DNA of 26,271 bases from Candidatus Acetothermia bacterium. Lineage in GTDB: Bacteria; Bipolaricaulota; Bipolaricaulia; RBG-16-55-9; JANLFV01. Shown here one piece after another: positions 2,085 to 19,140 of this stretch (positions are counted from its first letter, which is position 1; every line of letters begins with the position of its first letter). The notes under the pieces are model-generated. The model was not told the DNA's origin and did not search any database. It was given only the letters and a program-made list of their open reading frames with translations. A program made the position numbers and the translations under genes. The stretch covers positions 1 through 26,271 of the forward strand of contig JANLFV010000018.1 of the NCBI GenBank assembly GCA_024653345.1, written 5' to 3'.

Positions 2085-3137
2085 CTACCTCAAGATCACC
2101 AGCTTCCGCACCTCGCTCCTCAGGACCGTCCCGTCGTAGCCCTTGACGGCCACAGTGTAGAGGTAAACGCCGTTCGCAAGGGGCGCGCCTCTATCGTTCC
2201 GCGGCAGCCATTCCAAGGCGCTGCTCGAAACCCAGCCGCTGTCGAAGATTGCCCGCCCGGCCGGGCTGAAGACCTCGACCCTGAGGCCCGCGAGCCCCGC
2301 CCCGAGGGCGGCGAACCTGATCGGTCCCCGGCCGCTCCCGCTCGCTTGGAACCTCAGGGCGCTCAGTGCGGTAGCCCCCGCCGGGGGCGAGAGCGCCAGC
2401 CCGGAGGTTTTCAGCGGCGCAGTCAGCACGGCGCTCTTGAACCTGCAGAGGCCGTAGATCAGGCACTTCATGCTCTCCTTGACCCGGACCTCGCCTCGCC
2501 AGGCGGCCTCCAGCCTCCGCATCGCGCTGCTCACCAGGCTCTTCGCCTTCCGCAGCTCCCTGGCTGTAGGCGAGGCTAACTCGACCAGTGTCCGAGCGCC
2601 CAGAAAGTCCGAGCTCGCCTGCGCGAGATTTATGCTGATATCCACGAGTGTCTGGTTCACGCTCTCCAGGCAGCCTCCCAGGCAGTTGGCGAGGATCTTC
2701 CCCAGCTCGGCGGCCTCCGTCTGGGTGATCTTCGTGCTGACCTTGCTGTCTATAGTCTGGCCTAGATCGTAGACTGCTGCCTCTAGGTAATACTCCTTGA
2801 AGCTCCGCGCTGCCCCGATCCCCGACTGAGCCTTATTGATCCGGCCCATCGCCTTGGTTATCGCTGTATCCACCAGGCTCGTCTGAATGGTCCCGCGACG
2901 GCTGAGCAGGGCGAGGGCCTCCGTCCCAAAGCCCTTTGCTTTGATGATCTCCGCGCTCACCTCGGTCCGGACTAGTTCTCTGAAGGTCTCCGCATCGGCC
3001 GAGATGGCATTAGCGGCGTCGATGAGCGTTGCCTTGAAGCCCGCGGAGATGTCGGCAACGGCCTGAGGAGAGATCAGCCACAGGGCACAGCCCCAAATAC
3101 CCGCCAGCAATAAGAACGCAAGAACTCTCCTGCTCAC
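2085..3137 (-). CDS. Exported helical protein with FlgD/sorting-type C-terminal tail
   Basis: About 350 residues, unknown function. The start is taken as the GTG at 3137 because AAGGAGGT lies 5-6 bases before it; an ATG at 3155 is in frame but would put that ribosome-binding site inside the gene. A signal peptide follows (RRVLAFLLLAGIWGCALWL, cleavage near QAVA). Residues about 30-230 are predicted helical by composition (Ala, Lys, Ile, Ser), with two Cys pairs (NCLGGC and KCLIYGLC). The last ~90 residues are the tail shared with the other big proteins: FSPAGRAIFDSGW, then LANGVYLYTVAVKG and the end RKLVILR. It has no cohesin, dockerin or PKD domain. It follows the operon ending at 3324, after a hairpin, so it is probably transcribed separately. 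Confidence 0.75.
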   Translation of the reverse strand: MSRRVLAFLLLAGIWGCALWLISPQAVADISAGFKATLIDAANAISADAETFRELVRTEVSAEIIKAKGFGTEALALLSRRGTIQTSLVDTAITKAMGRINKAQSGIGAARSFKEYYLEAAVYDLGQTIDSKVSTKITQTEAAELGKILANCLGGCLESVNQTLVDISINLAQASSDFLGARTLVELASPTARELRKAKSLVSSAMRRLEAAWRGEVRVKESMKCLIYGLCRFKSAVLTAPLKTSGLALSPPAGATALSALRFQASGSGRGPIRFAALGAGLAGLRVEVFSPAGRAIFDSGWVSSSALEWLPRNDRGAPLANGVYLYTVAVKGYDGTVLRSEVRKLVILR

Positions 3138-3289
3138 GACCCACCTCCTTCTCATGCGATTCTAGAGGAAGGGATGGGCCAGTTGTCTGTGATCCTCATT
3201 ACTCTCAACCAGAAGGGGGCGAGGCGCGCGGACGTCGTAGTCCAGAAGTCCGGTTGGAGAGCGGAACCAGCTACTCAGGAGAGCACGGA

Positions 3290-3318
3290 CCCGCGATGAA
3301 TGGGCTAATTCATGCGGG
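3290..3318 (-). terminator. Hairpin just after the PKD/cohesin gene
   Basis: CCCGCGATGAAT and ATTCATGCGGG pair with one bulged base around a loop of six, ending six bases from the stop codon at 3324. It has the position of a terminator for the operon that runs from 8361 down to 3324, but no T run follows. Confidence 0.5.
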
Positions 3319-3323
3319 CTTGC

Positions 3324-5183
3324 TCATCTCTGGATGAGCAGGCTCTGGACGGCCGAGCGCCCGAGGGCCTGGCCGTCCGGCCCCAGGGCCTGGATGTAGT
3401 AGAAGTAGGCCCCGTTGGGGAGGGGCTGGCCTTCCGCGGACTTCAGGTTCCAGGCGAACTCTTGAGCTGCTAGCGTCAGCTCTTGCTCGAAGACCAGCCG
3501 GCCCGTGGCGGCGAAGAGGCGGAGCCTGGCCTTGGCGGCCCCGCTCGGGAGCGCGTATTTGAAGGTGGTCTGCGTCGAGGCCGGGTTGGGGTAGCAGTGG
3601 GCGGTCACGCTCGGCTGGACTTGGCCCACGCGGATCTGCTTCGTCGTGCTCCCGGTGAGGCCGTCGTTGTCGGTCACGGTGAGCTTGACGGTATAGACCC
3701 CGCGTTTGGCGTATTTGTGCGCGGGGTTCTGCTCCGTGGCGGTCGAGCCATCTCCGAATTCCCAGGCCCAGGACTTGATCGTCCCATCGGGGTCGGTCGA
3801 GCGGTCGGTGAACCGGACGAGCTGGCCCGGCTGGGGGCTCTCCGGGGCGAAGCTGAACGCGGCCTGGGGCGCCCCGGCCGCGCCCTGGGCGACCGTGATC
3901 TGCTGGGAGGTCAGCCCTGTCGCACCCCGGTCGTCCGCGACCTTCAGGGTCACCTTGTAAGTGCCGGCCTTCTTGTAGCGGTGCTCCGGGTCGCGGAGCG
4001 TGCTCGTCGTCCCGTCCCCGAAGTCCCAAAACCACAGGACCACCTCGCCATCGGGGTCGCTCGCCTGGGAGAAGAACTTCACCGTGTCCTGGGTGCTCGG
4101 GCTGGTCGGGGCGAAAGTGAAGGCGGCCTGGGGCGGCTCGTTCACCGCTACTTTGAAGACCGTCAGCTCGCGGAAGAAGGAGTCGGTCGCCCCGCGATTG
4201 TCGGCGACCGTCAGGGTTACCCGATACCTCCCCGAGGCTGAGTATCGATGCGATGGGGCCTCGACCGTGCTGCTGCTGCCGTCGCCGAAGTCCCAGAACC
4301 GGAAGGTGATCTGGCCGTCGGGATCGCTCGAATGATCGGTGAACCGGACCTCGTCCCCCACCGTAGGCCGAGTCGGGGAGAAGGTGAAGTAGGCGATCGG
4401 GGGCTGATTCGGCGGCGCGGGGTAGACGACCAGTTCCTTCACCGCCCGGCCGATCGCCCCCTCGTTGTCGGTCACGGTGAGCTTGACCGTGAACACGCCC
4501 ACCTCCTTGTAGCGATGGGTCGGATTCCGGTCATTCGAGGTCGCCCCGTCGCCGAACTCCCACTCCCAGGCGATGATCTTCCCATCGTCGCTCGATTCGT
4601 CGCTGAACTGGAGCGTCTCCCCGGCGAACGGCTTCTCCGGGGAGACGGAGAACGCGGCTTGGGGCGGGGGATTGAGCTTGATGGTCAGCCGGCCGTCGAT
4701 CGTGGTGTAAGCGATGTCGTTGCCCTGGGGATCGCGGAGCGCGTCGATCCGGCTTATCCTGATCGGCGTGCTCTCCCCGAGGTTCCCGACCGCCCGGACC
4801 TCGAGCTCGACCACCGCTCCCTCGGTCTTGGCCGCCTCCGCGGGCGCGGAGGCGGTGAACCTCACGCTCCCCGCCCCGTTGTCGATGGTCTGGGCTGTGA
4901 TCGTATAAGGAGTTATTCCTGTGACCGCGAGCACCTCCATCACCTGGGGGTCATAGGTGAGCTCTCCACGGGGGCCGATCTGGATCAGCCCCAGGCCGGG
5001 CGCGGGCACCCCGCTCACCAGGACGCGGATGATCGTCGTGGCGCCGGGCGAGGCCGATCGGGTCTCGACCGTCACCTCGGCGTTCGTCGCGGCCCGTATC
5101 GGCCCGGTCCCGGGCCACAAGAGCAGGGGAGCGACAGCGAGGGCCAGGAGCAGCAGCCTCAGCCTCCCCTTCCCTTTGTCCAT
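3324..5183 (-). CDS. Exported cohesin-like protein with four PKD domains and sorting-type tail
   Basis: About 620 residues. Signal peptide RLRLLLLALAVAPLLLW; cohesin-like module at about 35-170 (IQIGPRGELTYDPQVMEV is its hallmark); four PKD domains at about 171-258, 259-348, 349-438 and 439-523, each with the WxFGDG core (WEWEFGDGATS, FRFWDFGDGSSS, WFWDFGDGTTS, WAWEFGDGSTA) and an LTVxDNxG strand; then a tail of about 95 residues starting CYPNPASTQTTFKY and ending SLLIQR. The tail matches the FlgD-like/type-IX-secretion type-A sorting domain. PKD repeats are extracellular Ig-like modules for protein or sugar contact. The start is either the ATG at 5183 or a GTG at 5207; I prefer the ATG because nothing resembling a ribosome-binding site precedes the GTG. 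It lies 43 bases (19 from the GTG) after the lipoprotein gene, in the same operon. Confidence 0.85.
   Translation of the reverse strand: MDKGKGRLRLLLLALAVAPLLLWPGTGPIRAATNAEVTVETRSASPGATTIIRVLVSGVPAPGLGLIQIGPRGELTYDPQVMEVLAVTGITPYTITAQTIDNGAGSVRFTASAPAEAAKTEGAVVELEVRAVGNLGESTPIRISRIDALRDPQGNDIAYTTIDGRLTIKLNPPPQAAFSVSPEKPFAGETLQFSDESSDDGKIIAWEWEFGDGATSNDRNPTHRYKEVGVFTVKLTVTDNEGAIGRAVKELVVYPAPPNQPPIAYFTFSPTRPTVGDEVRFTDHSSDPDGQITFRFWDFGDGSSSTVEAPSHRYSASGRYRVTLTVADNRGATDSFFRELTVFKVAVNEPPQAAFTFAPTSPSTQDTVKFFSQASDPDGEVVLWFWDFGDGTTSTLRDPEHRYKKAGTYKVTLKVADDRGATGLTSQQITVAQGAAGAPQAAFSFAPESPQPGQLVRFTDRSTDPDGTIKSWAWEFGDGSTATEQNPAHKYAKRGVYTVKLTVTDNDGLTGSTTKQIRVGQVQPSVTAHCYPNPASTQTTFKYALPSGAAKARLRLFAATGRLVFEQELTLAAQEFAWNLKSAEGQPLPNGAYFYYIQALGPDGQALGRSAVQSLLIQR
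3327..3870 (-). repeat. Paralogous 3' end shared with the gene at 6820-8361
   Basis: The last PKD domain plus the whole tail of this gene and of the gene ending at 6820 (6823-7370) are close paralogues. DNA blocks are identical over tens of bases, for example around 3557-3600 and 7056-7099, while the upstream PKD domains differ much more. This pattern suggests recent duplication or gene conversion of the 3' module. Confidence 0.7.
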
Positions 5184-5226
5184 CACTCGAAAAATGCGCC
5201 CTCCCACTCCGGTCCGGCGGAGAGGT

Positions 5227-5805
5227 CTACTCGATGTTCAGCTGGCCGTTGCTGATCACGGAGGGGGCCAGGTCCTCGCCCCGCTCGCCCAGGAGCAAGT
5301 CCACTCTTGTCAGCTTCAGCACGCTCCGCTCTCCCGCCTTGCCCAGCACTTGAACCTCGAGCTCCAGGATCTCACCCTCCCTCACCCCTCCGGAGAGGCT
5401 GGCCGCGGCGAACCGCGCCCGCCCTGCAGCGGCGTCGATCTCGCTGGCAAAGACCGAGAAGCCCCCTACCCCGACGATGCTCTTGACCTGGAGGACCTTA
5501 GGATCGAAGACCAGCGCGCCGCGCGGGCCGACCTGGATCTCGGCCAGCCGCCCGTCGGTCAGGACCTCAACGGAGATCTTAACCTTGATCGTCTGCCCCG
5601 GGTTGGCCGTGGCGCTGGCGATAGTTAGCCTTACTGCGGGCTTTCCCACGAAGCTCTCTCCCAGAGAGCCGAGGAGGTCGCAGCCGCCAAGGAACGGACC
5701 GAAGCCGAGGAGGAGAGCTAGGACCGCGAGCAGCCCAGCCCTCCTCAGCCGGGAGGGCTTCCTCTGGGATCTGGCCTCGAGAGCCGATCTAGACTTAGTT
5801 GCCAT
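5227..5805 (-). CDS. Cohesin-like domain lipoprotein
   Basis: A 192-residue protein with a basic N-terminus, a hydrophobic stretch (AGLLAVLALLLGFG) and the lipobox L-G-G-C, giving lipid-modified Cys42. Nearly all of the rest is one cohesin-like module (residues about 55-192): IQVGPRGALVFDPKVLQV is the strand-turn-strand block shared with its neighbours, and the end has the KLTRVDLLL and NGQLNIE strands. Unlike the other exported proteins of the cluster it lacks the sorting-type tail, so it would be anchored by lipid instead. It sits between the PorV-like gene (52 bases) and the four-PKD gene in one operon. The start ATG at 5805 has a GGAG site. A cohesin held on a membrane could be the docking point for the dockerin proteins encoded at 8538 and 10787; that is inference. 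Confidence 0.8.
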   Translation of the reverse strand: MATKSRSALEARSQRKPSRLRRAGLLAVLALLLGFGPFLGGCDLLGSLGESFVGKPAVRLTIASATANPGQTIKVKISVEVLTDGRLAEIQVGPRGALVFDPKVLQVKSIVGVGGFSVFASEIDAAAGRARFAAASLSGGVREGEILELEVQVLGKAGERSVLKLTRVDLLLGERGEDLAPSVISNGQLNIE

Positions 5806-5857
5806 CGTCGTCTCCGCTAGTCACGCATCCCGTGGGCTGATGGTGCTCGCCGCGGGC

Positions 5858-6823
5858 TTACTTGAAGAATGGCGTTAGATCCACAGAGAACGCCAGGCGG
5901 TGGCTGTCCAGCCCCTCGGGATAGGCAATGAAGGCATAGTCTACCCAGAAGTTCTGCATTCTGAGGCCGAAGCCGAGGGTCAGCCCCAGCCCGCCGCGGA
6001 CGAACCCGCCGGTCCTGAGCCGCAGCTCCTGGACGCCGTAGCCGAGGTTGAGGAACCGATACTCCGACCCCAGATGGAAGGCGCCGCTCCCCTCAAGGTC
6101 GAGCGCTAGGATCAGGTTATCGAGAACCCTGGCGGAGGTCCCGAAGCGGAGCCCCAGGTTCCACGGCTCTTTATGACCGCTCCCGTATTCGACCCCCAGG
6201 CTGAGGAGGTTCTGGACCATCAGCCCCAAGCGGAGCGCTCTGACAGGGCCGAGCCGGAGCGCGCTGAGGTCGGCGAGCAGGCCCGAGTCGAGCGCCAGGC
6301 CCGAGCCGCTCCCCTCCTCCAGGGTGCTGATTTGGAGGAGCTTGAGGTTCAGCCCGAGCGCGATCGAGCTGGGGATGGCCGCGAAGAACCTGGCGGGACG
6401 GAGGGCATAGGAGCCGACCAGCCCGTAGCTGCCGTAGCCGAAGGTCTTCCCCGGCTTGTCCGAGGCGTCATATTGGGTGATCCCGCCGACGGAGAAGAAG
6501 AGGATCCCGCTCCCGAAGCCCCTCCCGACAAGCGCCAGGTTCCCGAAGCTCGCGCCGAATCGCGGCTCGTAGAAGGAGCCGAGCCGCAGGCCCTCCAAGA
6601 GAGTCAGTCCGGCCGGATTATAGAAGAGCGAGTTCTCATCGTCGGCCAGCCCGGTGAACGCTCCGCCCATCCCCAACGGCCGGACGCCAGGATCGATGTC
6701 GAAGAGTGAGACCAAGCTCTGCGCTGAGGCCGGAGCCGTAGACAGGAACAGGGCTATCAGGAGTAGCCCGGCCAGCGCCCCTTGGAGCCCGCGCCTCTGC
6801 GAACGGATCAGCCGTCCTTTCAT
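5858..6823 (-). CDS. PorV/PorQ-like outer-membrane beta-barrel protein
   Basis: A 321-residue protein with a signal peptide (GALAGLLLIALFLSTAPASA) and the hallmark N-terminus of the PorV/PorQ (UPF0164-like) family: GVRPLGMGGAFTGLADDENS followed by LFYNPAGL. The rest is alternating short beta strands rich in Gly, Leu and aromatic residues, ending in a C-terminal Phe-containing strand (DLTPFFK), as barrels of the FadL type do. In type IX secretion PorV shuttles tail-bearing cargo to the surface attachment complex. The start is fixed by an ATGA overlap with the stop of the preceding gene (6820-6823), so translation is coupled to that cohesin-PKD protein, itself carrying a sorting-type tail. A longer start at 6865 is rejected for that reason. 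No other type IX component is in the window. Confidence 0.8.
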   Translation of the reverse strand: MKGRLIRSQRRGLQGALAGLLLIALFLSTAPASAQSLVSLFDIDPGVRPLGMGGAFTGLADDENSLFYNPAGLTLLEGLRLGSFYEPRFGASFGNLALVGRGFGSGILFFSVGGITQYDASDKPGKTFGYGSYGLVGSYALRPARFFAAIPSSIALGLNLKLLQISTLEEGSGSGLALDSGLLADLSALRLGPVRALRLGLMVQNLLSLGVEYGSGHKEPWNLGLRFGTSARVLDNLILALDLEGSGAFHLGSEYRFLNLGYGVQELRLRTGGFVRGGLGLTLGFGLRMQNFWVDYAFIAYPEGLDSHRLAFSVDLTPFFK

Positions 6824-8361
6824 CTTTGTATCACCAGCTTTCCAATATCGGACTGGGCGAGCCACTTCCCCGAGGCATCAAAGGCTGTAATATAGAAGAA
6901 GTAGGGGCCATTGGGGAGGGGCTCGCCCGCATCGGACTTGAGGTTCCAGGCATACTCTTGGGCCGCGACCGTCAGCTCGTGGTGGAAGACCGGCTTCCCC
7001 CGAACATCGAAGAGGTGGAGGACCGCTTTAGCCGTCCCGCTGGGGAGGGTGTATTTGAAGGTGGTCTGCGTCGAGGCCGGGTTCGGGTAGCAGTGGACGG
7101 CCACGCTCGGCCGAGCCTGACCGACTGTGATCTGCTTCGTCGTGCTCCCGGTCAAGCCATCGTTGTCGGTGACGGTGAGCTTGACCGTGTAGGTCCCGCG
7201 AGCGGCATACTTGTGCGAGGGGTTCCGGTCTGTGGCGGTCTTGCCGTCTCCGAAGTCCCAAGCCCAGGACTTTATCGTCCCATCCGGATCAGTAGATTGG
7301 TCGGTGAACTGCACCAGCTGGCCGGGCTTGGGATTCTCCGGGGAGAAGCTGAATTTGGCCTGCGGCGCCCCGCCCTCGCCCCCGACGACGATCGTCTTGG
7401 AGGCGCTATTCGTGAGCCCTTCATTGTCGGCCACTGTCAAGCTCACCGTGTAGGTGCCGGCCTTCGCGTATTCATGGGTCGGGTTCCGGACCGCGCTTGT
7501 TGTTCCGTCGCCGAAGTTCCAATTCCAGGAGATGATCGTCTCGTCCCCGTCCGGATCGCTCGACTTGTCGGTGAACTGGACCGTGTCGCCAGCCGCCGGG
7601 CTCGTGGGGGAGAAGGTGAAGCTAGCCTGCGGCGGCCGGTTGGGCGGCCGGACGGTGATCTCCTCGGAGGTGATGTCGGTGGCACCGGTGCTGTCCTCGA
7701 TCAGGAGCTTGACCGTATAGGTTCCAGCCGTCGCGTATTTGTGAGCCGGGTTCTGCTGGGTGCTCCCCTCGCCATCGCCGAAGTCCCAGAGCCAGCGGAT
7801 GATGTTCCCGACCGATTGGTCGATGAACTGGACGGTCTCGTTGATCCTCGGCTCCTGGGGCTGGAAGGTGAAGATTGCTTGCTGGGCCTTGATGGTGAAG
7901 CTCCCGTTCTTGATCCGGTAGTCAATCCGCGCACCGGAAGGGTCATTGAAGGCCTCGAGGGCCAGCTCCAGCAGACTGCTATCGCCCAGCTGGCCGACCG
8001 CCCTCACCTCAAACTGCACGATATTGCCTTCCCGAAGGAACTTCCCGCTCAGCTTCGCCACGACGAACCGGACCAGCCCTAGCTTGTTATTCGCGTTGTA
8101 AGCGAAGACTTGGTAGCCGTTTAGGCCGACGACCTTCTCCACCTGAAGCACTTGGGGATCGTAGGCCAGGCTCCCCTGGAGGTCGGAGAGGCCCGCCTCC
8201 GGGGCCCCTTCGATGGAGAGCTTCACTCTGGTGGTCTTGCCCGGTGCGGCCCCGTAGTCCCCGATCGTCACAATGGCCGCTGGGTCAGCAGAGATCTCCA
8301 GGGCCAGTGAAAGGAGCAACAAGACCAAGGATGAGACCAGCAGACTGCGCCTTCTGTTCAC
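6820..8361 (-). CDS. Exported cohesin-like protein with three PKD domains and sorting-type tail
   Basis: A 513-residue protein. The start is the GTG at 8361 with GAGGGTGG upstream. Signal peptide about 1-26 (SLLVSSLVLLLLSLALEISA); cohesin-like module about 28-159 (DLQGSLAYDPQVLQVEKVVG); PKD domains at about 161-240 (WLWDFGDGEGS), 243-330 (WNWNFGDGTTS) and 334-416 (WAWDFGDGKTA); tail from about 420 to the end (CYPNPASTQTTFKY to KLVIQR). It is the first gene of an operon that continues with the PorV-like gene (ATGA overlap), the cohesin lipoprotein and the four-PKD protein. The N-terminal cohesin differs a good deal from that of the four-PKD protein, but the last PKD and tail are nearly the same. 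Confidence 0.85.
   Translation of the reverse strand: MNRRRSLLVSSLVLLLLSLALEISADPAAIVTIGDYGAAPGKTTRVKLSIEGAPEAGLSDLQGSLAYDPQVLQVEKVVGLNGYQVFAYNANNKLGLVRFVVAKLSGKFLREGNIVQFEVRAVGQLGDSSLLELALEAFNDPSGARIDYRIKNGSFTIKAQQAIFTFQPQEPRINETVQFIDQSVGNIIRWLWDFGDGEGSTQQNPAHKYATAGTYTVKLLIEDSTGATDITSEEITVRPPNRPPQASFTFSPTSPAAGDTVQFTDKSSDPDGDETIISWNWNFGDGTTSAVRNPTHEYAKAGTYTVSLTVADNEGLTNSASKTIVVGGEGGAPQAKFSFSPENPKPGQLVQFTDQSTDPDGTIKSWAWDFGDGKTATDRNPSHKYAARGTYTVKLTVTDNDGLTGSTTKQITVGQARPSVAVHCYPNPASTQTTFKYTLPSGTAKAVLHLFDVRGKPVFHHELTVAAQEYAWNLKSDAGEPLPNGPYFFYITAFDASGKWLAQSDIGKLVIQR
6823..7370 (-). repeat. Paralogous 3' end shared with the gene at 3324-5183
   Basis: Partner of the segment at 3327-3870: final PKD domain and sorting-type tail, same order and nearly the same protein sequence (KSWAWDFGDG against KSWAWEFGDG; LTVTDNDGLTGSTTKQI identical in both). 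Confidence 0.7.
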
Positions 8362-8405
8362 GTTCCACCCTCAGGCAATGAAGATTTCTAGCTACCTCAA
8401 CGGCA

Positions 8406-8447
8406 ATCTTAGCTAACAGCCTCTCCGGAAGCAAAGGACAGCTGTCC
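8406..8447 (-). promoter_or_regulatory. Candidate promoter and palindrome before the cohesin/PorV operon
   Basis: On the minus strand TTGCTT (8434-8429) and TAAGAT (8411-8406) are separated by 17 bases, as -35 and -10 boxes are, about 45 bases before the GTG at 8361. Directly upstream is the perfect 12-base palindrome GGACAGCTGTCC (8436-8447), a possible operator. Box matches are only partial (3/6 and 4/6). Confidence 0.4.
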
Positions 8448-8480
8448 GGTCGCCATCACTTGATCATCACCAAGGAAACG

Positions 8481-8512
8481 GCAGGCCCGCAGCCGGAAGG
8501 CCACGGGCCTGC
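8481..8512 (-). terminator. Terminator-like hairpin after the cohesin-dockerin gene
   Basis: GCAGGCCCG (8481-8489) and CGGGCCTGC (8504-8512) form a 9-bp perfect stem. On the minus strand it is followed by CGTTTCCTTGG. It lies 26 bases after the stop of the gene at 8538. Confidence 0.6.
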
Positions 8513-8537
8513 GTTCAGCCAACCTTAAGGGTAAGGG

Positions 8538-10589
8538 TTACCTCAGGATCACGAGCTTGCGGACCCCGGTCGTCGCTAGCTCGCCGTTGTATCCCCTGAC
8601 GGTTACAACGTAGAGATAGACGCCGTTAGCCAGTAAGGCGCCCTGAGCCGTCCGCATGTTCCACTCGAGGCTTGTCCCCGCGGCGAAGCCGGAGTCAAAG
8701 AGTCGCTTGCCGGAGAGGCTGTAGATCTCGACCTTCGCTGCGGCGATCCCCTGGCCCTCGACCCTGAAGCCGAGCGTGCCGCTGCTGGAGCTCAGGGCAA
8801 CAGCCCGAATCTGCAGCTCCGTCGGGCTGGTCGCCTTGCCCAGGGCCTCAGCTGCGGCGCTCGCGGCCTCGGCCGTGATCGCCTTCCGGGCGATCTCCGC
8901 TACATCGGCGGAGTCCACGGTGCCGTCCTGCGTTGCATCGGCAATGAGCAATTGCTCAGCGGTCAGGGTCAGCAGCCCCACCAGGTGCTGCGCCACGAGC
9001 AACGCGTCGTGGATGGTGATCCTGCCGCTGCCATCGACATCGCCCAGGATCACCAGCGTGATCGGCCCCGGGCAGACGAAGACATTCGCCGTGATGTTGT
9101 TCGGTGGCGAGGCATCATCGAGGACTTCAACGAGGCTGAGCTCGAGCTGAGTCTGGTCCCCGACGGCACCGACGCCGTTCACCTTGAACTTGAAGATGTC
9201 TCCGTCGATCACCGGGACGGAAGTGAGCCCGAAGTTGTAGCTCAGAGTGAAGGTGGCTCTCCCTTCGAGGTGGTTGATCGTGGCCGAGCTGATGGTGTAG
9301 TCATCGTTGTATGGCGGCAGGACCACAAAGGGCGTCTCGTCGTCCGCCGGATTGTGAGGATCGTCGATGGGATCGATGACATTCGGGTTCCAGATCAGTG
9401 TCCCCTGAATGCCTCCCAAGCCGACCGCCGGGTCGTGCGACTTCCAACGGATTGTCACGAACCCCTCAGCGTTAGCGGGGAGGTTCGGGTTATGGATGAT
9501 GATCGCATCCATTCCGGCCGGGATGGCGGGGCCGGTCACGATCGCTTCCGGGGTCCCGTCGCTCATCTTGGGCCAGACGCTGCTGTCGATCTCTGTCCCG
9601 TTCGGTTCCTCTGCGACGACGGTCGTCTCGAACTGGACAGTATGGCCCGGGAAGGCGTAGGGCGAGACCTTCACCCCGATCTGGAAGGTAGCGCAGGTGT
9701 CGTCAGTAAACGTGTATCCGAAGCCGACGGGGGTGATTCGGACTGGGGTGCCCGGGGTAAACGGTGTTGCCGGTATCTGTATCGTGGCTATCGGCGTAGG
9801 ATTACCCTTGACGTAGAGGTGGATCTCCGCCAGGTCATACTCGTCAGCGTCGCCGAGGTTCACCACCCAGACCTCGCGCAGCACGGGTCGCGACAGCTGG
9901 GCGTCGTTGTCGCAGAGGGTGAACTCCTGGACCTTGTGCGTTCCGCCCAGGGTGAGGATCCCGCCGCTGTAGTTGTTGTCCACCGCGGCTTCAAAGCCGC
10001 CGTTCCAGATGATCTCCGGGGCCTTGTCCTCGATACCTGGGGAGGTGAATGTCTGGGGGGTAGAGAAGCCACTCGGCTGCTCTTCATAGGTCAGGCGCAA
10101 CTGCAGCCGCAGGGTCTTCCCCTGGAAGACACCGGCCAGATGATCCGTGTCATCGAGAAAGACCACCACCTGGAGGATCTGGGTCCCCTCGTCGGCGATC
10201 TCCCAGTCTGGTATGTTCCGAGTTTCACCCCAAGCGGTTATCGGCCAGAGCGTATCTATGCACCGGTTGTCCTTGTCTAGGAAGATAATGTCCTTAACTG
10301 CCCCGACCTCGGCGGTCCCGAGGTTACTCACCTGGATGTGGGTAATCTTGACATTGCTCCTATCTTGAGCGGGATAGTCCACATCCCGGATCTCCACCTT
10401 CATCACGAGGGCCGCGTCGTTCCAAGTGAGCGCGCTCCCGGCCGCGCAGGCAGGGGCGGTCACCCCCGGATTGAGCGGCTTTGCCTGGTATCCTAGATCC
10501 CGAGCTTCGATTTGCGCCATCGCCGCGAAACCGATGAACGAGGCAAGGGCTAAGAATACCGCCAATGCTAGAAGCAACTTTCTGGCCAT
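8538..10589 (-). CDS. Exported protein with cohesin-like module, dockerin and sorting-type tail
   Basis: About 683 residues. I start at the ATG at 10589: AAGGAGG ends 8-9 bases before it, whereas an ATG at 10595 is too close and one at 10679 adds 30 unlikely residues before the signal peptide. Signal peptide RKLLLALAVFLALASFIGFA. Residues about 30-355 are two beta-rich regions (VQVSNLGTAEVGAVKDI-type and VWVVNLGDADEYDLAEI-type strands), without a family I can name. Cohesin-like module about 360-509; dockerin about 511-568 with two calcium-loop repeats, GDVDGSGRITIHDALLV and DATQDGTVDSADVAEI; sorting-type tail about 590-683 (LSGKRLFDSGF to RKLVILR). Having both a cohesin and a dockerin it could link to itself or to the neighbours. 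It appears to be a single-gene transcript with its own promoter region and terminator. Confidence 0.85.
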   Translation of the reverse strand: MARKLLLALAVFLALASFIGFAAMAQIEARDLGYQAKPLNPGVTAPACAAGSALTWNDAALVMKVEIRDVDYPAQDRSNVKITHIQVSNLGTAEVGAVKDIIFLDKDNRCIDTLWPITAWGETRNIPDWEIADEGTQILQVVVFLDDTDHLAGVFQGKTLRLQLRLTYEEQPSGFSTPQTFTSPGIEDKAPEIIWNGGFEAAVDNNYSGGILTLGGTHKVQEFTLCDNDAQLSRPVLREVWVVNLGDADEYDLAEIHLYVKGNPTPIATIQIPATPFTPGTPVRITPVGFGYTFTDDTCATFQIGVKVSPYAFPGHTVQFETTVVAEEPNGTEIDSSVWPKMSDGTPEAIVTGPAIPAGMDAIIIHNPNLPANAEGFVTIRWKSHDPAVGLGGIQGTLIWNPNVIDPIDDPHNPADDETPFVVLPPYNDDYTISSATINHLEGRATFTLSYNFGLTSVPVIDGDIFKFKVNGVGAVGDQTQLELSLVEVLDDASPPNNITANVFVCPGPITLVILGDVDGSGRITIHDALLVAQHLVGLLTLTAEQLLIADATQDGTVDSADVAEIARKAITAEAASAAAEALGKATSPTELQIRAVALSSSSGTLGFRVEGQGIAAAKVEIYSLSGKRLFDSGFAAGTSLEWNMRTAQGALLANGVYLYVVTVRGYNGELATTGVRKLVILR

Positions 10590-10704
10590 TTTCATCTCCT
10601 CCTTCCCTAGGGTTAGCCTCAGCTGGCCTCCGTCAGACTGCCCTCCTTTCGTCATTATCGGCCTCCTTCTGCCTGCCATGCAAGGTCAGGCTGAGAAGAT
10701 AGTA

Positions 10705-10745
10705 AGGCCGCCGGGGAGTCTATGTCTGTAACAGGGATGACGAAA
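10705..10745 (-). promoter_or_regulatory. Upstream element shared with the next surface gene
   Basis: On the minus strand CTGTTACAGACAT (10734-10722) closely matches CTGTTACATACAT (13729-13717), which stands before the other dockerin gene. About 20 bases on comes TACTAT here and TATAAT there. The element could be a -35 region with an unusual spacer or an activator site controlling both dockerin genes. Confidence 0.4.
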
Positions 10746-10786
10746 AGGCCTGATTTTTCAGTAATGGAAGCAACAAACAGGGCCAG

Positions 10787-13615
10787 CTAGCGCAGCACGA
10801 CCAGCTTCCGGACCCCGCTGTGGAGCAAAGCTCCATCGAGGCCGCGGACGGTCACCAGGTAGAGGTAGACACCGTTTGCCACGATCTGTCCCCGAGTGTT
10901 GAGGAGATGCCACTCGAAGGCGTTCCCTACCCAGCCGCTGGTGAAGACAGTCCTGCCGGAGAGGTCGAAGATCTCCACGGCGATCTCGGCGATCCCCGAG
11001 CCCTCGACGGAGAAGGTGACAGCATCAGAGTTCTTCACAGGGTTAGGGATAGCGCGGATATCGCGCACCATGAGCCCTGTTGTCCTCTCCACGGTGATCG
11101 TCCCGTTGATCACTCGGGCCCCGAGCTCGGTCCCTCCCAGGTCGCGGAGGATGTCCACGCCTGTGAGCTCGAGCCTGGTAGAGCCTCCCCCAGCGCTGGT
11201 CACTGCCACCTCGAGCTCGGCGATGGGCCCCCTCCCCCGGGCCGCTTCCCTGTCTAGAGCGATAAGGACGAATTGGGCCCTTCCGTCAGTGTTGTCGATC
11301 CGCTCGGCTAGCACGCGGTAGGGTCCCAGACCCCTGATCCCTCGGAGCTGGACTATCTTGGGGTCGAAGAGGAGTGCGCCCTGGGGACCGACCTGGAGGT
11401 CGACCACCTCGCCCAGACCGTCTGTGAGGAAAAGCCCGATCTTGCCCGTCGAGCCGCTAGGGATGGCCTTGCTCTCGAGCTCGACCGAGACAACCCGGCC
11501 CGCGCCTTCGGCTGAGCCGACTTCGCTCTCGTAGCAGCCCATCTCCGAGACGAGGCCGATCGTGTATTCCGCGATCCAGCGCACATCGGTTACATCCACA
11601 TGCCTCTCCGGCGGACGGCAGGGGGAGCGGACATCGGCGTTATACCTCTGAATCTCATTGAGCTCTCGGAGGCAGACGATATACTCCGCAGCCCACTGGG
11701 CATCGATGATGTCCACATCTCCGTCGAGGTCGACATCACCCTTCAGCCCGAACATGACTATTATCTGGACTTCGTCTGTATCGACGCCTCCTCGGCCGTC
11801 CTCGACCTGGAGTTGAACCACATACCTCCCGACAGCGTCGGCCAGGAAGGTCGGCCTGACATTAGCCGGGTCCGAGAGGACAGCGAGGCTCTCCTCGGGC
11901 TTGCTGATGAAGCTCCAAGTGAAGCGGAGCCGATCGCCGTCGGGATCGAACGACCCGCTCCCGTCGAGTTGCACCGTCACGCCCTTGATCACGGCTTGAT
12001 CCGGGCCGGCATCGGCCACGGGAGGGTGCTGGGGCTTGGCGATCCCGTAGATGATGTAGACCTCGCCGGCGTCAGGGATGCGATCCTTCGGCCCATCGGC
12101 CCCGACTGCGCCGACTAGGATATCATCAGTCCCGTCCCCATTGACATCACCGCTCCACAGGCCGCTCCCCAGCTTGTCGAGGGGCGAGGCGCCGTAGATG
12201 ACTACATCAGGGCCCTGACGGAGCAGGTCGAGCTGGGCCGGCAGCTCGCCCCCATAGATGAGGTAAGCCTCTCCCGCGTCTGCCCGCTTGTTCGGGCCGT
12301 CCGCGCCCTTTGCGCCGATGAGGAGGTCGCTCAGGCCATCTCCGTTCACATCTCCGCTCGCTAGAGCACTGCCTAACGCGTCGCGCGGATCTTGGCCGAA
12401 AATGATGATGCCGCTCGAGGCCTGGGCTAAATCGATCACTGGCGGGAAGCCTTCCGCCCCGTAGATGACATAGACCTCGCCCGCTCCGCCCCTGAGGTTA
12501 TCGGGCCCCTTCCCCTCCGGTGCCCCGGCGATGAGGTCTTCAAATCCATCGCCGTCGAGGTCGGCGATCAGGACGGAGGAGCCGAACCTGTCACCGGCAT
12601 CCCTCCCGAAGAGAGCTACATCGGCCGCGGCCGCTCCGAGGTCGATCTCCGCCGGCCAGTTCTCGCGACCATAAATGAGGTAGGCGGCTCCCGCATCAGG
12701 GAGGGCACCGCCTGCGCCGTCAGCATCCGGGGCTCCGACCAGGACGTCGCTTATCCCGTCCCCGTTCACATCAGTGGTAGCGACGGCCTCACCGAGATGA
12801 TCGCCAGGGTTCGCCCCGTAGATGGCGACATGGGGATAGCGAGCGGTCCGGAGGTCGATGACCGAGGGGAGATTGAGACTCCCGAAGACGATGAAGGCGG
12901 CGCCCGCGTCGGGGCGACCGGCACGCCACCCATCAGCATCGGGGGCACCGATCACGATGTCATCGATGTTGTCTCCGTTCAAGTCGGCGGTGCCCAGCGC
13001 TATACCGAATCTTTCCTGCGTGTTGAGGCCGTAGATGATTGTGTCATAGGACGCGGAGCTCAGCAGATCAATAACCGAGGGCAAGTTGGGGCGGCCGAGG
13101 ATGATATAGACCTCGCCTAATCCGAACCTGTCGTTGTTAGGGCCATCGCCGCCGCAGCTTGAGATGATGATATCGTCGATCTTATCGCCGTTCACATCCC
13201 CGCTTGCTACGCCACAGCCCAGGTTATCGCCTATGTCGGAGCCGTAGATTCTCACCCCGGGGCCGGGGAAGTCAGCCAGGTCTAGCGATGAGGGCACCCC
13301 GACACCGCTGAAGATGATGTATCCTTCACCGGCATCGGGCCGGGAGTTGCCCGGCCCATCGGCGTTGGAGGCGCCGAGGAGAATGTCCTGTCTCCCATCG
13401 CCGTTGAAATCACCGGTGGCGATAGAGCTGAAGTCTCCGAGGAGATCATTGCTATCAATGCCGAAGATGGTCACATTCTGTTCCCCGTTGGCGATATCAA
13501 TCGAACTGGGCAGCTGGGTGAGGGCAGGGCAGAGCAGGCTCAGCACTAGGGGCAGCGATAGGACGAGGCCTGACAAAACGCTAGCTCTCAAGAAACTCGA
13601 GCGAGTAATCCTCAT
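10787..13615 (-). CDS. Exported FG-GAP (integrin-type) protein with PKD-like, dockerin, cohesin-like and sorting-type domains
   Basis: A 942-residue protein, start ATG at 13615 with AAGGAGG six bases upstream. Signal peptide about 1-34. Residues about 45-525 hold seven FG-GAP repeats that would close a seven-bladed integrin-alpha-like propeller; each has a FG/YG-start, a calcium loop such as GDVNGDGLSDLLIGA and a closing YIIYG strand. Then a PKD/REJ-like domain (about 530-620, PPVADAGPDQAVIKG), a dockerin (about 624-690) whose first loop GDVDLDGDVDIIDAQW is standard and whose second is altered by a Cys-containing insert (RSPCRPPERHVDVTDVRW), a cohesin-like module (about 707-841, LQVGPQGALLFDPKIVQL) and the tail (about 848-942, LSGRTVFTSGW to RKLVVLR). 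It is probably the largest surface ligand-binding protein of the cluster. Confidence 0.88.
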   Translation of the reverse strand: MRITRSSFLRASVLSGLVLSLPLVLSLLCPALTQLPSSIDIANGEQNVTIFGIDSNDLLGDFSSIATGDFNGDGRQDILLGASNADGPGNSRPDAGEGYIIFSGVGVPSSLDLADFPGPGVRIYGSDIGDNLGCGVASGDVNGDKIDDIIISSCGGDGPNNDRFGLGEVYIILGRPNLPSVIDLLSSASYDTIIYGLNTQERFGIALGTADLNGDNIDDIVIGAPDADGWRAGRPDAGAAFIVFGSLNLPSVIDLRTARYPHVAIYGANPGDHLGEAVATTDVNGDGISDVLVGAPDADGAGGALPDAGAAYLIYGRENWPAEIDLGAAAADVALFGRDAGDRFGSSVLIADLDGDGFEDLIAGAPEGKGPDNLRGGAGEVYVIYGAEGFPPVIDLAQASSGIIIFGQDPRDALGSALASGDVNGDGLSDLLIGAKGADGPNKRADAGEAYLIYGGELPAQLDLLRQGPDVVIYGASPLDKLGSGLWSGDVNGDGTDDILVGAVGADGPKDRIPDAGEVYIIYGIAKPQHPPVADAGPDQAVIKGVTVQLDGSGSFDPDGDRLRFTWSFISKPEESLAVLSDPANVRPTFLADAVGRYVVQLQVEDGRGGVDTDEVQIIVMFGLKGDVDLDGDVDIIDAQWAAEYIVCLRELNEIQRYNADVRSPCRPPERHVDVTDVRWIAEYTIGLVSEMGCYESEVGSAEGAGRVVSVELESKAIPSGSTGKIGLFLTDGLGEVVDLQVGPQGALLFDPKIVQLRGIRGLGPYRVLAERIDNTDGRAQFVLIALDREAARGRGPIAELEVAVTSAGGGSTRLELTGVDILRDLGGTELGARVINGTITVERTTGLMVRDIRAIPNPVKNSDAVTFSVEGSGIAEIAVEIFDLSGRTVFTSGWVGNAFEWHLLNTRGQIVANGVYLYLVTVRGLDGALLHSGVRKLVVLR

Positions 13616-13944: not shown

Positions 13945-15423
13945 TCATTCGATCCCCTGGGCCTTCTGGAGCCGGCCGGAGTAGTCGATGTAGACCGCCT
14001 TCCATTCAGTGTATTCGTCGATGGCCGCCTCTCCGGCCTCCCGCCCCCCGTTCCCCGTCCACTTGACCCCCCCGAAGGGGAGGTGGACCTCGGCCCCGAT
14101 CGTCCCGCTGTTGATGTAGGTGATCCCGGCCTCGAGCTCCTGGATCGCCCGCTGGGCCTTGTTCACATCCTGCGTATAGATCGAGGATGAGAGGCCGTAG
14201 TTCGTCCCGTTGGCGATGGCGATGGCCTCCTCGTAGTCCCGGGCCTTCAGGACCGCCAGGACCGGGCCGAAGATCTCCTCCTGGGCGATCCGCATCGTGG
14301 GCTTGACATCCCCGAAGATCGTCGGCTTGTAGAAGAAGCCCTTCGCGAGCTCCCCTTCGGTCGCCCGCTCCCCGCCGCAGAGGAGCTTGGCCCCCTCCTT
14401 AATGCCGAGCTGGACATACTCATGGATCTTGTTCAGTTGGGCCTCGTTCACCACCGGCCCGACATCGACGCTCTCGTCCAGGCCGTTCCCCAGCTTGAGC
14501 CGCTCCGTCCGCTCCACCAGCTCCTTCAATAGCTCTTCATAGACCCCGTCCTCGATGATCAGCCGGCTGCAGGCGGTGCACCGCTGGCCTGTGGTCCCGA
14601 AGGCGCTCCAGATGATCCCCTCGAGCGCCAGCTCCAGGTCGCCGTCCTCGAGGACGATGATCGGGTTCTTCCCCCCCATCTCGAGGTGGACCTTATTGAG
14701 CTTCTCCGCGCCGTAGCGGTAGATCTCCCTTCCGACTTCTGTCGAGCCGGTGAAGGTGATCATATCGATCTTGGGATGCTTGGCCAGGGGTATTCCCACC
14801 TTGCTCCCGCTCCCGAAGACCAAGTTCACGACCCCCGGGGGGAGGCCCTGGTCGGCCATGATCTTGACCAGCTCATAGGCCATTCTCGGTGTATCGGTCG
14901 CGGGCTTCCAGACGAGGGTGTTCCCCGCGACCAGGGCCGGCATCAGCTTCCAGGTGGGGATGGCAAAGGGGAAGTTCCAGGGGGTGATCATGGCGATCCT
15001 CCCGATCGGCCGGCGGATAGCGTATTGGGCCTTATCGGGCAGCTCAGAAGGGGTGGTATACCCCCGGAGGCGGCGGCCCTCACCGGCCATATAATAAGTC
15101 ATATCTATTCCCTCCTGGACCGAGCCGCGGGTCTCGTTCAGGACCTTCCCCATCTCGCGAGTCATGAGCCTCGCCAGCGCCTCCTTCCTTCGCTCGAACT
15201 CCTGGGCCACCTTGAAGAGGAGCTCGCCCCGCTTGGGGGCCGGGACCTTCTGCCACTCCCGGAGGGCTCGATCGGCCGCCTCCACGGCCTTGTTCACATC
15301 CCGCTCGTCCGAGGCGGGGAACTCGCCCAGAAGATCCGAGGTATCCGCCGGGCTCACCGACTTGAAGGTCTGGCCGCCCTCGGCCTCGACCCACTCTCCG
15401 CCGATGTAGTTCTTGTAGAGCAT
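13945..15423 (-). CDS. NAD(P)-dependent aldehyde dehydrogenase (2-oxoglutarate-semialdehyde DH-like group)
   Basis: A complete 492-residue aldehyde dehydrogenase, oxidising an aldehyde to the acid with NAD(P)+ in the cytoplasm. Catalytic residues are present: Glu248 in LEMGGKNP and Cys282 in [18 protein letters not shown] and GSGSKVG are the cofactor-binding segments and [11 protein letters not shown] the C-terminal signature. Overall it resembles the 2-oxoglutarate-semialdehyde/GapN-like group ([26 protein letters not shown]), but the substrate cannot be fixed from sequence. Start ATG at 15423 has AAGGAGG five bases upstream. It is transcribed away from the nucleotidyltransferase and 1-pyrroline-5-carboxylate dehydrogenase genes; the nearby second dehydrogenase suggests a shared part in amino-acid or amine breakdown. 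Confidence 0.9.
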
Positions 15424-15485
15424 CTCGACCTCCTTGCGAGAGATTGCGATGGCATTATAGCTTGGGCCGCGCGGGATGGTCCATT
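15424..15485 (-). promoter_or_regulatory. Candidate promoter and ribosome-binding site of the aldehyde dehydrogenase gene
   Basis: On the minus strand TATAAT (15459-15454) lies 30 bases before the ATG and AAGGAGG lies at 15435-15429. A good -35 is not seen at the expected distance (GC-rich CCCGCGCGG fills the spacer). Confidence 0.45.
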
Positions 15486-15573
15486 TGACAGGGCCCTCGC
15501 CCCGGCCTTTAATCTTACAAGGAATGCGCGAGGAGATCGGCTGGCGGTGGGCCCAGGCGAAGGAGGTGCCTAG

Positions 15574-15912
15574 ATGGGTCGAGGCGCAACTCGGCTCGGG
15601 CTCGAAGGGGAGCTAGCCGAGGAGTTCCGGAAGTTCAGGGAGGCCCTCGCCCGGGAATTCAAGGTCGAGAGGCTCATCCTCTTCGGCTCGCGGGCCCGGG
15701 GGGACCACCTCAAGGATAGCGACATCGACCTAGTGATCATCTCCCCCGACTTCCGGGGGCTGAACTTCCTCGAGCGAGTGAGAAGGGTCGCCCGCCTCTG
15801 GGATGGCGCCCTCCGGCTCGAGCCGCTCTGCTATACCCCCGAGGAGTTCGACCGCCGGAAGGGTGAGCTGAGCATCGTCGGGATCATCCATCGCGAGGGC
15901 AAGGAGATCTGA
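15574..15912 (+). CDS. Minimal nucleotidyltransferase (MNT) domain protein, orphan
   Basis: A 112-residue protein of the minimal nucleotidyltransferase fold (DNA polymerase beta-like). FGSRARG at 37-43 is the phosphate-binding GS motif and DSDIDL at 48-53 gives the metal-binding pair Asp50 and Asp52; the third acid is probably Glu in LRLEPLCYTPEEF. The end SIVGIIHREGKEI is typical of complete members. Such proteins usually pair with a HEPN protein: the MntA type inactivates its HEPN toxin by adding AMP. No HEPN gene adjoins it; 56 bases after it the dehydrogenase gene starts. AGGAGG lies seven bases before the ATG. Role here unknown. Confidence 0.85.
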   Translation: MGRGATRLGLEGELAEEFRKFREALAREFKVERLILFGSRARGDHLKDSDIDLVIISPDFRGLNFLERVRRVARLWDGALRLEPLCYTPEEFDRRKGELSIVGIIHREGKEI

Positions 15913-15968
15913 GCCTCGGGAGGGGGAAGGGGCCGGGATTCTTATCAACCCGATTTAAGGAGGCGAGA

Positions 15969-17570
15969 ATGGTCATGTTCGCAGAAGCTGGGCTGACCAA
16001 GCCGACGAATGAGCCCTACCTCTACAAGGTCGATCCGCGGTTCACCGCGGCGCTCCGGAAGGAGCTGGAGCAGTTCGAGTATGACCGGGAGGTCTACTCG
16101 ATCATCAACGGCGAGCGGGTCCGAGGCGGCGGGGCCGAGCTCATCTCCCGCGAGCCTTGCAACCATAGGAAGGTCATCGCCCGGACGAGGATGGTCACCC
16201 CCGAGCAGGCCCGCCGGGCGGTCGAGGCGGCCTTGGCGGCCAAGGAGGAGTGGGAGCACCAGCCGCCCTTGGCCCGGGCCCAGGTCTTCTGGCGGGCCGC
16301 TCAGATCCTGAGGGAAAGGCGGGCCAAGCTCGTGGCGATCACGATGAAAGAGGTGGGGAAGACGGCTTTCGAGGCCGAGGCCGACTTCGCCGAGATGATC
16401 GATTTCCTGATGTTCAACCCCTACTGGGCTTTGACCTTCGTCTATCCCCTCCAGCCGGAGGCCGTCCCCGGGGAGACCAATATTGCCACCTGGCGGCCGC
16501 TCCGGGGCTTCGTCTTGGCGGTCACGCCCTGGAACTTCCCCTTGGCGATCGGGACGAACCTCCCCACCGCCCCGGCGATCATGGGGAACACCGTGGTCTG
16601 GAAGCCCTCCTCGGACGCGATCGGGCTCTCCTACCTCGTGATGGAGGCCCTTATAGAGGCCGGCCTGCCCCCGGGGGTGATCAACCTCGTCTACGGCTCC
16701 GGCTCAGTAGTCGGCCAGGAGTTGGTGAAGCACCCCCAGCTCGGTGGGATCCACTTCACCGGCTCGCTCGAGGTCGGAAGGCAGCTCTACCAGGCCGGGG
16801 CGGCGAACCTCGAGAGGGGCTTCCCCAGGATCGTGGCCGAGTGCGGCGGTAAGGACTTTCTATTTGCCCTACCCGATGCCGACTTAGATTCTCTGGCCTG
16901 GGCCATCGTGGCCGGCGGCTACGGCTACCAGGGGCAGAAGTGCTCGGCCTGCTCCCGCTCCTACATCCCGAAGTCGATCTGGCCTAAAGTAAAGGAGAGG
17001 CTCATCGCAAGGCTCGAGTCACTCAAGGTCGGGGATGTGAGCGACCTCGCGGCCGAGGTGGAGATGGGCGCGGTCATCAATGCGCCCTCCTGGGAGAAGA
17101 TCAACGGCTACATCGAGGCGGCGCGCCGCTCCCCCTCCTGCAAGATCCTCTATGAGCGGAAGGCCGACAAGTCCGTGGGCTACTACATCGGCCCGGTCCT
17201 GATCCAGGTCGAGGACCACTCCCAACCGGTGATTCAGGAGGAGATCTTCGGCCCGGTCCACGCCGTCTTCGTCTACCCCGACGATAGGCTCGAGGAGGCC
17301 CTCGAGCTCTGCCGCTCGAGCGACTTCGCCCTCACCGGCTCGATCTACGGGACGGATGTAACGAAGATCACCTATGTCCACCGCAAGCTCATCCACGCCG
17401 CGGGGAACCTCTACATCAACGACAAGTGCACCGGGGCGATGGTCAATCGTCAGTGGTTCGGCGGGGACGGCTGGAGCGGGACGAACGATAAGGCCGGCTC
17501 GCCCTTCCATCTCTTGCGCTGGGTCAGCCCCGCGGTCACCAAGTGGGTCAGCCCCCACCGGGTCGCGTAG
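15969..17570 (+). CDS. 1-pyrroline-5-carboxylate dehydrogenase (L-glutamate gamma-semialdehyde dehydrogenase)
   Basis: A 533-residue protein of the ALDH4 type (EC 1.2.1.88), which oxidises glutamate gamma-semialdehyde to glutamate with NAD+, the last step of proline and part of arginine/ornithine breakdown. The long N-terminal extension with EPYLYKVDP, the segment FNPYWALTFVYPLQP and the end DKAGSPFHLLRWVSP are features of the group that separate it from general aldehyde dehydrogenases. Catalytic Glu291 lies in AECGGKDF and Cys325 in GYQGQKCSACSR. The ATG at 15969 has AAGGAGG at a good distance. No proline dehydrogenase is fused or adjacent, so the semialdehyde may come from ornithine instead or from a gene elsewhere. 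The hdrCBA operon follows 114 bases on, in the same direction. Confidence 0.9.
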   Translation: MVMFAEAGLTKPTNEPYLYKVDPRFTAALRKELEQFEYDREVYSIINGERVRGGGAELISREPCNHRKVIARTRMVTPEQARRAVEAALAAKEEWEHQPPLARAQVFWRAAQILRERRAKLVAITMKEVGKTAFEAEADFAEMIDFLMFNPYWALTFVYPLQPEAVPGETNIATWRPLRGFVLAVTPWNFPLAIGTNLPTAPAIMGNTVVWKPSSDAIGLSYLVMEALIEAGLPPGVINLVYGSGSVVGQELVKHPQLGGIHFTGSLEVGRQLYQAGAANLERGFPRIVAECGGKDFLFALPDADLDSLAWAIVAGGYGYQGQKCSACSRSYIPKSIWPKVKERLIARLESLKVGDVSDLAAEVEMGAVINAPSWEKINGYIEAARRSPSCKILYERKADKSVGYYIGPVLIQVEDHSQPVIQEEIFGPVHAVFVYPDDRLEEALELCRSSDFALTGSIYGTDVTKITYVHRKLIHAAGNLYINDKCTGAMVNRQWFGGDGWSGTNDKAGSPFHLLRWVSPAVTKWVSPHRVA

Positions 17571-17684: not shown

Positions 17685-18263
17685 GTGAGAGGAATCAAGT
17701 TCGAGGCCGAGCTGGACCGAGCCTTCGCCCGGTGGGCCACGACCGTCCCGGGGGGCGAGCGGATCAGGGAGTGCATCCAATGCGGGGCCTGCAGCGCGGC
17801 CTGCCCCATGAGCGGCTACATGGACTATACCCCGCGGAGGATCATCGCCCTGGTGAAGGAGGGCTTCAAAGATGAGGTCCTCTCCAGCCGGACGATCTGG
17901 CTCTGCGCCTCCTGCTATGCCTGCGCGGTCGAGTGCCCACAAGGGATCAACATCACCGACTTCATGTATGCCTTGAAGGAGCGAGCGATCAAGGAGGGCC
18001 GCTACCCCAAGGGGCTCCCTACACCGATCTATGCCCAGGAGTTCGCTAGGCTGGTCCGCGCGAGAGGCCGGAGCACCGAGAGCCTCCTGGTCATCCGGGC
18101 CGCGCTCCGGCTCAATCCGCTCCGGCTCCTCAAGCTAGCCCCGCTCGGGCTGCGGCTCCTCCTGCGGGGGCGGATGGGCCTCCGGCCTGAGCAGGTGAGG
18201 GATCGGGCCGCGGTGAGGGCGATGCTCACGGCCTCAGAGAACGCGAAATCGAGAGAAGAATGA
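17685..18263 (+). CDS. hdrC: Heterodisulfide reductase-like subunit C (HdrC)
   Basis: A 192-residue iron-sulfur protein. Two [4Fe-4S] clusters are bound by Cys30-33-36-40 (CIQCGACSAAC) and Cys74-77-80-84 (CASCYACAVEC), the CxxCxxCxxxCP pattern of HdrC. HdrC passes electrons between HdrA and the catalytic HdrB. The start is a GTG at 17685 with no strong ribosome-binding site. After residue about 110 comes a basic, Leu- and Arg-rich C-terminal part not seen in the shortest HdrC proteins. Its stop overlaps the hdrB start (ATGA, 18260-18263), so the two are made together. Confidence 0.9.
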   Translation: MRGIKFEAELDRAFARWATTVPGGERIRECIQCGACSAACPMSGYMDYTPRRIIALVKEGFKDEVLSSRTIWLCASCYACAVECPQGINITDFMYALKERAIKEGRYPKGLPTPIYAQEFARLVRARGRSTESLLVIRAALRLNPLRLLKLAPLGLRLLLRGRMGLRPEQVRDRAAVRAMLTASENAKSREE

Positions 18264-19135: not shown

Positions 19136-19140
19136 GGATT

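Follow-up and report, generated by a model that had tools for sequence, protein, structure and literature searches.

The stretch of DNA analysed here (the window) is one entire contig of 26,271 nucleotides, JANLFV010000018.1, from the genome of a Candidatus Acetothermia bacterium (assembly GCA_024653345.1; 1.71 Mb, 92% complete). It carries an operon-like run of seven minus-strand genes, from position 13615 down to 2085, in which exported proteins built from cohesin, dockerin and other modules stand together with a barrel protein resembling PorV of the type IX secretion system (T9SS). The genes are as follows.

2085..3155, minus strand: exported protein of 356 residues with a helical region and a C-terminal sorting-like tail (2088-2357; tail match E 1.9e-33)
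3324..5207, minus strand: cohesin (4674-5087; PF00963, 31.4 bits), four PKD domains (PKD_4, 275.7 bits) and tail (3327-3608; TIGR04183, 27.7 bits)
5227..5805, minus strand: lipoprotein (lipobox LGGC, Cys42) made of a single cohesin (5230-5640; PF00963, 32.3 bits), without tail
5858..6865, minus strand: PorV-like outer-membrane barrel (NF033709, E 3.7e-17; PorV in the PDB, E 2e-13)
6820..8361, minus strand: cohesin (7882-8283; PF00963, 29.8 bits), three PKD domains and tail (6823-7104; TIGR04183, 27.5 bits), located just before the PorV-like gene and coupled with it
8538..10679, minus strand: two Ig/CARDB-like regions, cohesin (9081-9512), dockerin (8856-9047; PF00404, 36.9 bits) and tail (8541-8822)
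10787..13615, minus strand: seven FG-GAP repeats (PF01839, 162 bits), PKD-like domain, dockerin (11534-11743), cohesin (11087-11494) and tail (10790-11068)

Modules of the exported proteins

Signal-peptide-like N-termini were seen in the window's exported proteins. Of the five cohesin proteins, all but the lipoprotein have the tail. The cohesin passes the Pfam curated cut-off in 3324-5207, 5227-5805 and 6820-8361, as does the dockerin in 8538-10679. The cohesins of 8538-10679 and 10787-13615 and the dockerin of 10787-13615 fall under Pfam detection and were recovered by our own profiles, which were built from the window and its relatives and had the recovered window modules among their rows (E 6e-38 for the cohesin of 8538-10679; E 7.9e-40 and 8.4e-33 for the cohesin and dockerin of 10787-13615). 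The tail of the latter protein was found by the same kind of search (E 9.4e-36). When the C-terminal part of the 8538-10679 protein was modelled with AlphaFold, its cohesin superposed on the scaffoldin cohesin CipA (Z 15.2, root-mean-square deviation 2.8, 144 residues). A Pfam search of the 2085-3155 protein returned no family and no cohesin. Since Pfam, NCBIfam, our own profiles and the modelled fold all place the modules where an initial annotation of this DNA had put them, its observation of exported modular proteins with cohesin, dockerin, PKD and FG-GAP parts is real.

The sorting tail and its PorV-like partners

That annotation had also counted five proteins with a common sorting-like tail, a count that held. 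Each of the five tails runs right up to the stop codon, its last residue being arginine, and three of them pass the TIGR04183 cut-off (27.7, 27.5 and 23.2 bits). Across the genome, 19-20 proteins have the tail's last residue, nearly always arginine, as their own C-terminal residue. Two further tail matches, at 634-1779 on contig C8 and 7092-8787 on contig C13 of the same genome (G000), show frame breaks or unusual ends and are perhaps decayed tail genes. When the tail profile was compared with the PDB, the C-terminal domain (CTD) of PorU was the best match (E 2.1e-7), followed by the CTDs of PorZ and RemA and then by FlgD; the modelled tail of 8538-10679 superposes on the PorU CTD of P. gingivalis (Z 10.8, root-mean-square deviation 2.5, 89 residues, 21% identity).

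The proposed link of the set to a PorV-like protein was borne out as well, both by the NF033709 match (E 3.7e-17) and by the family profile, for which F. johnsoniae PorV was the only PDB match (E 2e-13). The window's PorV-like gene probably starts with the ATG at 6823, which overlaps the stop codon of the tail gene before it (ATGA). Such coupling is general: a tail gene lies directly upstream, on the same strand, of 85 of the 85 PorV-like genes with room for one (median gap 6 nucleotides). The sample comprised 86 genes, or 78 groups at 95% identity; its loci were fetched via PorV or via the barrel described below, so the counts describe those loci, and the upstream neighbour was not a selection criterion.

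A giant barrel related to SprA

The tail system extends over the whole genome, with the window set as one of its loci. The operon of the translocon-like barrel is encoded outside the window, and the barrel gene itself is on a second contig of the genome:

L035:5345-9454 (G000:C30:49344-53453): SprA-like outer-membrane barrel of 1369 residues

At this locus a tailed S8 subtilase (L035:2032-4443) is followed by a PorV-like gene and the barrel, and then by another PorV/cohesin-PKD-tail pair. The catalytic triad motifs are intact in this S8 protein and in orthologs. Tail-PorV-barrel operons are spread over several families of the class, and the tail protein encoded before the PorV-barrel pair was an S8 subtilase in 9/9 tested, with triad motifs in most. 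Beyond these two partners, the only neighbours of the barrel conserved across the class were apparent housekeeping genes or antisense frames. The barrel itself is present in all 34 class genomes examined that are at least 90% complete, nearly always as a single gene.

Several comparisons relate this protein to SprA. In 29 of 40 genomes TIGR04189 (SprA) matches a single protein, which is the barrel, and it matched no control. A full-length profile of the barrel searched against the PDB was dominated by its inserted beta-propeller; SprA emerged with the propeller-free N-terminal part (about 520 residues), as the sole significant match among 177,635 sequences (E 7.8e-10, the next at E 0.9). This match consists of two collinear segments, with query residues 29-158 on SprA 149-284 and 396-491 on 696-789. 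An ortholog was modelled with AlphaFold over 1200 residues (pLDDT 80), which gave about 35 long strands and placed the propeller at about 523-801; the top four Foldseek matches of this model were SprA structures (E 1e-16 to 2e-10), with other barrels at 1e-7. VIA-align returned propeller matches only, which speak neither for nor against SprA. From the profile and Foldseek matches we claim that the barrel is a homologue of SprA. It is matched neither by PF14349 (SprA_N) nor by Pfam in general, so that the lack of a Pfam match was not read as evidence of absence. A reading of the propeller as a PorZ fusion was considered and dropped: although NF052228 is matched by 12 of 23 members, the strongest matches are to sensors of hybrid two-component systems (HTCS), and we therefore call it only PorZ/HTCS-like.

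The initial annotation had suggested searching the rest of the genome for T9SS components and had held that its reading would fail if the tails had no export route. The search brought up a SprA homologue on another contig and further proteins with the same tail, and no PorU-type C25 protease. As to the host, the annotation had thought the set of interest if it came from outside Bacteroidota, and this is the case. Relatives of the barrel are encoded at 24 public loci (the closest 83% identical), of which those with names belong to Bipolaricaulota, Acetothermia or Fraserbacteria. The host is a member of Bipolaricaulota and stands outside the Fibrobacterota-Chlorobiota-Bacteroidota (FCB) group, to which, or to Bacteroidetes, T9SS has been described as confined (PMC8754138, PMC4793230). 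The Bipolaricaulis genome paper reported no adhesins and left open whether the envelope is mono- or diderm (PMC6092417).

Cohesins and dockerins without enzymes

With sensitive profiles, eight cohesins and three dockerins were found in the genome, every dockerin in a tailed protein that also bears a cohesin and additionally carries PKD, FG-GAP or LTD domains. Such cohesins occur in 18 of 19 genomes of the window's order and in 7 of 41 in other families. A two-gene unit recurs in many genomes, namely a dockerin protein followed by a single-cohesin protein of about 170 residues, mostly with a lipobox; in most of the loci inspected the cohesin gene comes directly after the dockerin gene. The window lipoprotein 5227-5805 is of the same kind. 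Some loci with this unit were picked because both modules were listed there, and among those picked mainly for the short cohesin gene (L154-L167) most have the dockerin gene directly upstream. At L154:2152-5111 (G000:C27) the host genome has a second dockerin-cohesin-tail protein of this kind. It contains lamin-tail and PKD domains, and a single-cohesin lipoprotein comes directly after it.

The dockerin proteins examined, from this genome and its relatives, contain no hydrolase or other enzyme domain, in agreement with the earlier view that this is no ordinary cellulosome; those of the relatives carry PKD, DUF11, LTD, BACON or HYDIN-type domains. Of the hallmarks of a cellulosome, cohesin modules (by Pfam and fold) and dockerin modules (by PF00404 and profile) are present, and dockerin-bearing enzymes docked on a multi-cohesin scaffoldin are not, with one cohesin per window protein. 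We rejected an ordinary cellulosome because the three dockerins of the genome all sit in non-enzymatic proteins.

Other genes in the window

At 1060-1992, a minus-strand DUF3368/PIN-like gene after a UPF0175 gene resembles a toxin-antitoxin pair. The remainder of the window holds two divergently placed aldehyde dehydrogenase genes (13945-17570), a heterodisulfide-reductase-like set (17685-22572; 4Fe-4S, CCG and FAD/Fe-S subunits) and a minus-strand alpha/beta hydrolase with matches to chlorophyllase and PETase-like Pfam models (24592-25563).

Discussion

Taken from the sequences, the most probable account, to which we give a probability of roughly 0.7, is that the window holds genes for the cargo, and for one carrier, of an outer-membrane export pathway related to T9SS that would build a non-catalytic cohesin-dockerin surface layer. 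Export of the tailed proteins from the cytoplasm is predicted to go through Sec. The tail at their C-terminus, which is an Ig-like domain and a homologue of the type A CTDs of T9SS, would be the outer-membrane sorting signal, a role for which the support is strong. Passage of the outer membrane would take place through the class-wide SprA-like barrel encoded outside the window. The PorV-like barrels, each genetically coupled to its own tail protein, would then receive these proteins and hold them at the surface, and the tailed S8 subtilase encoded with PorV and the barrel may stand in for the C25 sortase PorU. Finally, cohesins and dockerins, among them the lipid-anchored cohesin and the proteins that bear both modules, would join the proteins with Ig, PKD and propeller domains into a layer that is non-enzymatic, dependent on calcium and adhesive or sheath-like in character, as the domain architecture and the recurrent pair of dockerin and cohesin-lipoprotein genes suggest. 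In the simplest reading, cohesins anchored by lipid or by the tail would bind adhesin-like proteins through the dockerins of the latter and so hold them in a surface layer, with the window lipoprotein 5227-5805 as a probable membrane anchor for dockerin proteins; chains bearing both a cohesin and a dockerin could also be linked head to tail. Self-assembly, which the initial annotation had proposed, is something we infer.

A number of observations sit uneasily with this account. The barrel's TIGR04189 scores (14-36 bits) are far from the 200-bit equivalog cut-off for SprA, the sequence detectably common to the two spans only about 230 residues, and the inserted HTCS/PorZ-like beta-propeller has no counterpart in the SprA matches. 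The barrel model has a pTM of 0.49, omits 80 C-terminal residues and gives low TM-scores against SprA (0.29); we therefore limit our claim to homology and a giant barrel, and do not extend it to identical architecture. The window PorV-like protein scores 62.9 bits with NF033709, below the curated cut-off of 90, despite which it is, by its sequence, clearly homologous to PorV. The tail weakly resembles FlgD in the PDB profile search, and the dockerin of 8538-10679 gave no confident AlphaFold model. A PorU-type C25 protease (PF01364) was not found in the host genome and occurs in 3 of 60 relatives (G030:C77, G056:C48 and G024:C22), while GldM was found in 0 of 60 genomes and GldN in 0 of 30, in searches without a positive control. 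Given these missing parts, we describe the system as T9SS-like and not as a standard T9SS member.

Some of the same observations would fit other explanations. It is unlikely, though not negligibly so, that the pathway parts are real while the SprA-like barrel has a different job in the outer membrane, such as lipid or polysaccharide handling or barrel assembly, with the PorV-likes merely holding tail proteins exported otherwise. The short region of similarity, the low global TM-score, the inserted propeller and the lack of a recognisable motor would all accord with this, but the barrel forms a class-wide operon with PorV and a tailed protease, and its Foldseek E-value for SprA is some nine orders of magnitude ahead of those for LptD and SlpA. 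A more sceptical reading, which we consider quite unlikely, dispenses with type-9-like export: the tail would be a generic FlgD/Ig-like end domain, the PorV-likes nutrient porins of the FadL type, and the proteins periplasmic or released adhesins. FadL-like/UPF0164 relatives occur in bacteria without T9SS, and both the weak FlgD matches of the tail and the sub-cut-off score of the PorV family lean this way. Such a reading has to contend with the coupling of tail and PorV in 85/85 cases, with a tail that is exactly C-terminal in 19-20 proteins and best matches the PorU CTD by sequence and also by fold, with PorV as sole PDB match, and with a SprA homologue within the same operon. Very improbable, lastly, is that the set belongs to a cellulosome or other enzyme complex with catalytic dockerin-bearing subunits elsewhere in the genome. 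Canonical as the cohesin and dockerin modules are, all three dockerins of the genome are in tailed, cohesin-bearing proteins and the dockerin proteins of relatives are without hydrolase; as the assembly is 92% complete, a missed dockerin enzyme is possible but unlikely.

The T9SS-related pathway that we favour can be set beside several known systems. It shares with the T9SS of Bacteroidota (SprA/Sov, PorV, PorU and CTD-bearing cargo) a homologous giant barrel, PorV and C-terminal signal, a tailed protease (here in the operon, there PorU itself) and many cargo genes scattered over the genome. Of the features that define that system, the PorV shuttle and cargo with a conserved C-terminal sorting domain were found here; a C25 PorU sortase and an FCB superphylum host were not. 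The barrel is also little over half the size of SprA and carries the HTCS/PorZ-like propeller, the protease is an S8 subtilase instead of C25, and the PorV genes are multiplied, each in an operon with one tail protein. Clostridial cellulosomes resemble our set in the cohesin fold (CipA), the EF-hand-like dockerin repeats and surface-anchored cohesin, whereas here each protein has a single cohesin (some relatives have two), there are no enzymes, cohesin and dockerin often share one chain, and anchoring would be via the CTD-like tail or lipidation. The cellulosome-like complex of Cloacimonadota 'Ca. Stygibacter' (PMC8542988) likewise joins dockerin and cohesin proteins with a surface-attaching CTD in a candidate phylum, but its dockerins are on GH18, GH57, S8 and C25 enzymes and it has one large scaffoldin; here no enzyme bears a dockerin, and PorV/cohesin-tail pairs are coupled. 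In our literature search, in which many journals were beyond reach so that an earlier notice is possible, this was the only report joining T9SS, dockerin, cohesin and an assembled complex in a candidate phylum. Cohesins outside cellulosomes are also known from archaea and bacteria (e.g., Archaeoglobus fulgidus 2xdh, fold match Z 14.2); unlike those, the ones described here are tied to a candidate export route and carrier.

The presence in Bipolaricaulota of relatives of the T9SS core, namely channel, carrier and C-terminal tag, suggests that type IX secretion arose earlier, or is more widely distributed, than has been assumed. About as likely as not is a further proposal: all Bipolaricaulota would have a type-9 lineage that is homologous to the known one but separate from it, has its own propeller-bearing translocon, uses a subtilase as sortase and lacks a rotary motor, and in one order this lineage would build a cohesin-dockerin coat. 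If so, T9SS would predate the FCB group or have spread beyond it. With a class-wide SprA/PorV/CTD core the origin of T9SS becomes testable, and such a core implies that Bipolaricaulota have an outer membrane with large barrels. Furthermore, it would offer a reduced system, without the known sortase and possibly without the motor, and a clean example of enzyme-free use of cohesins and dockerins.

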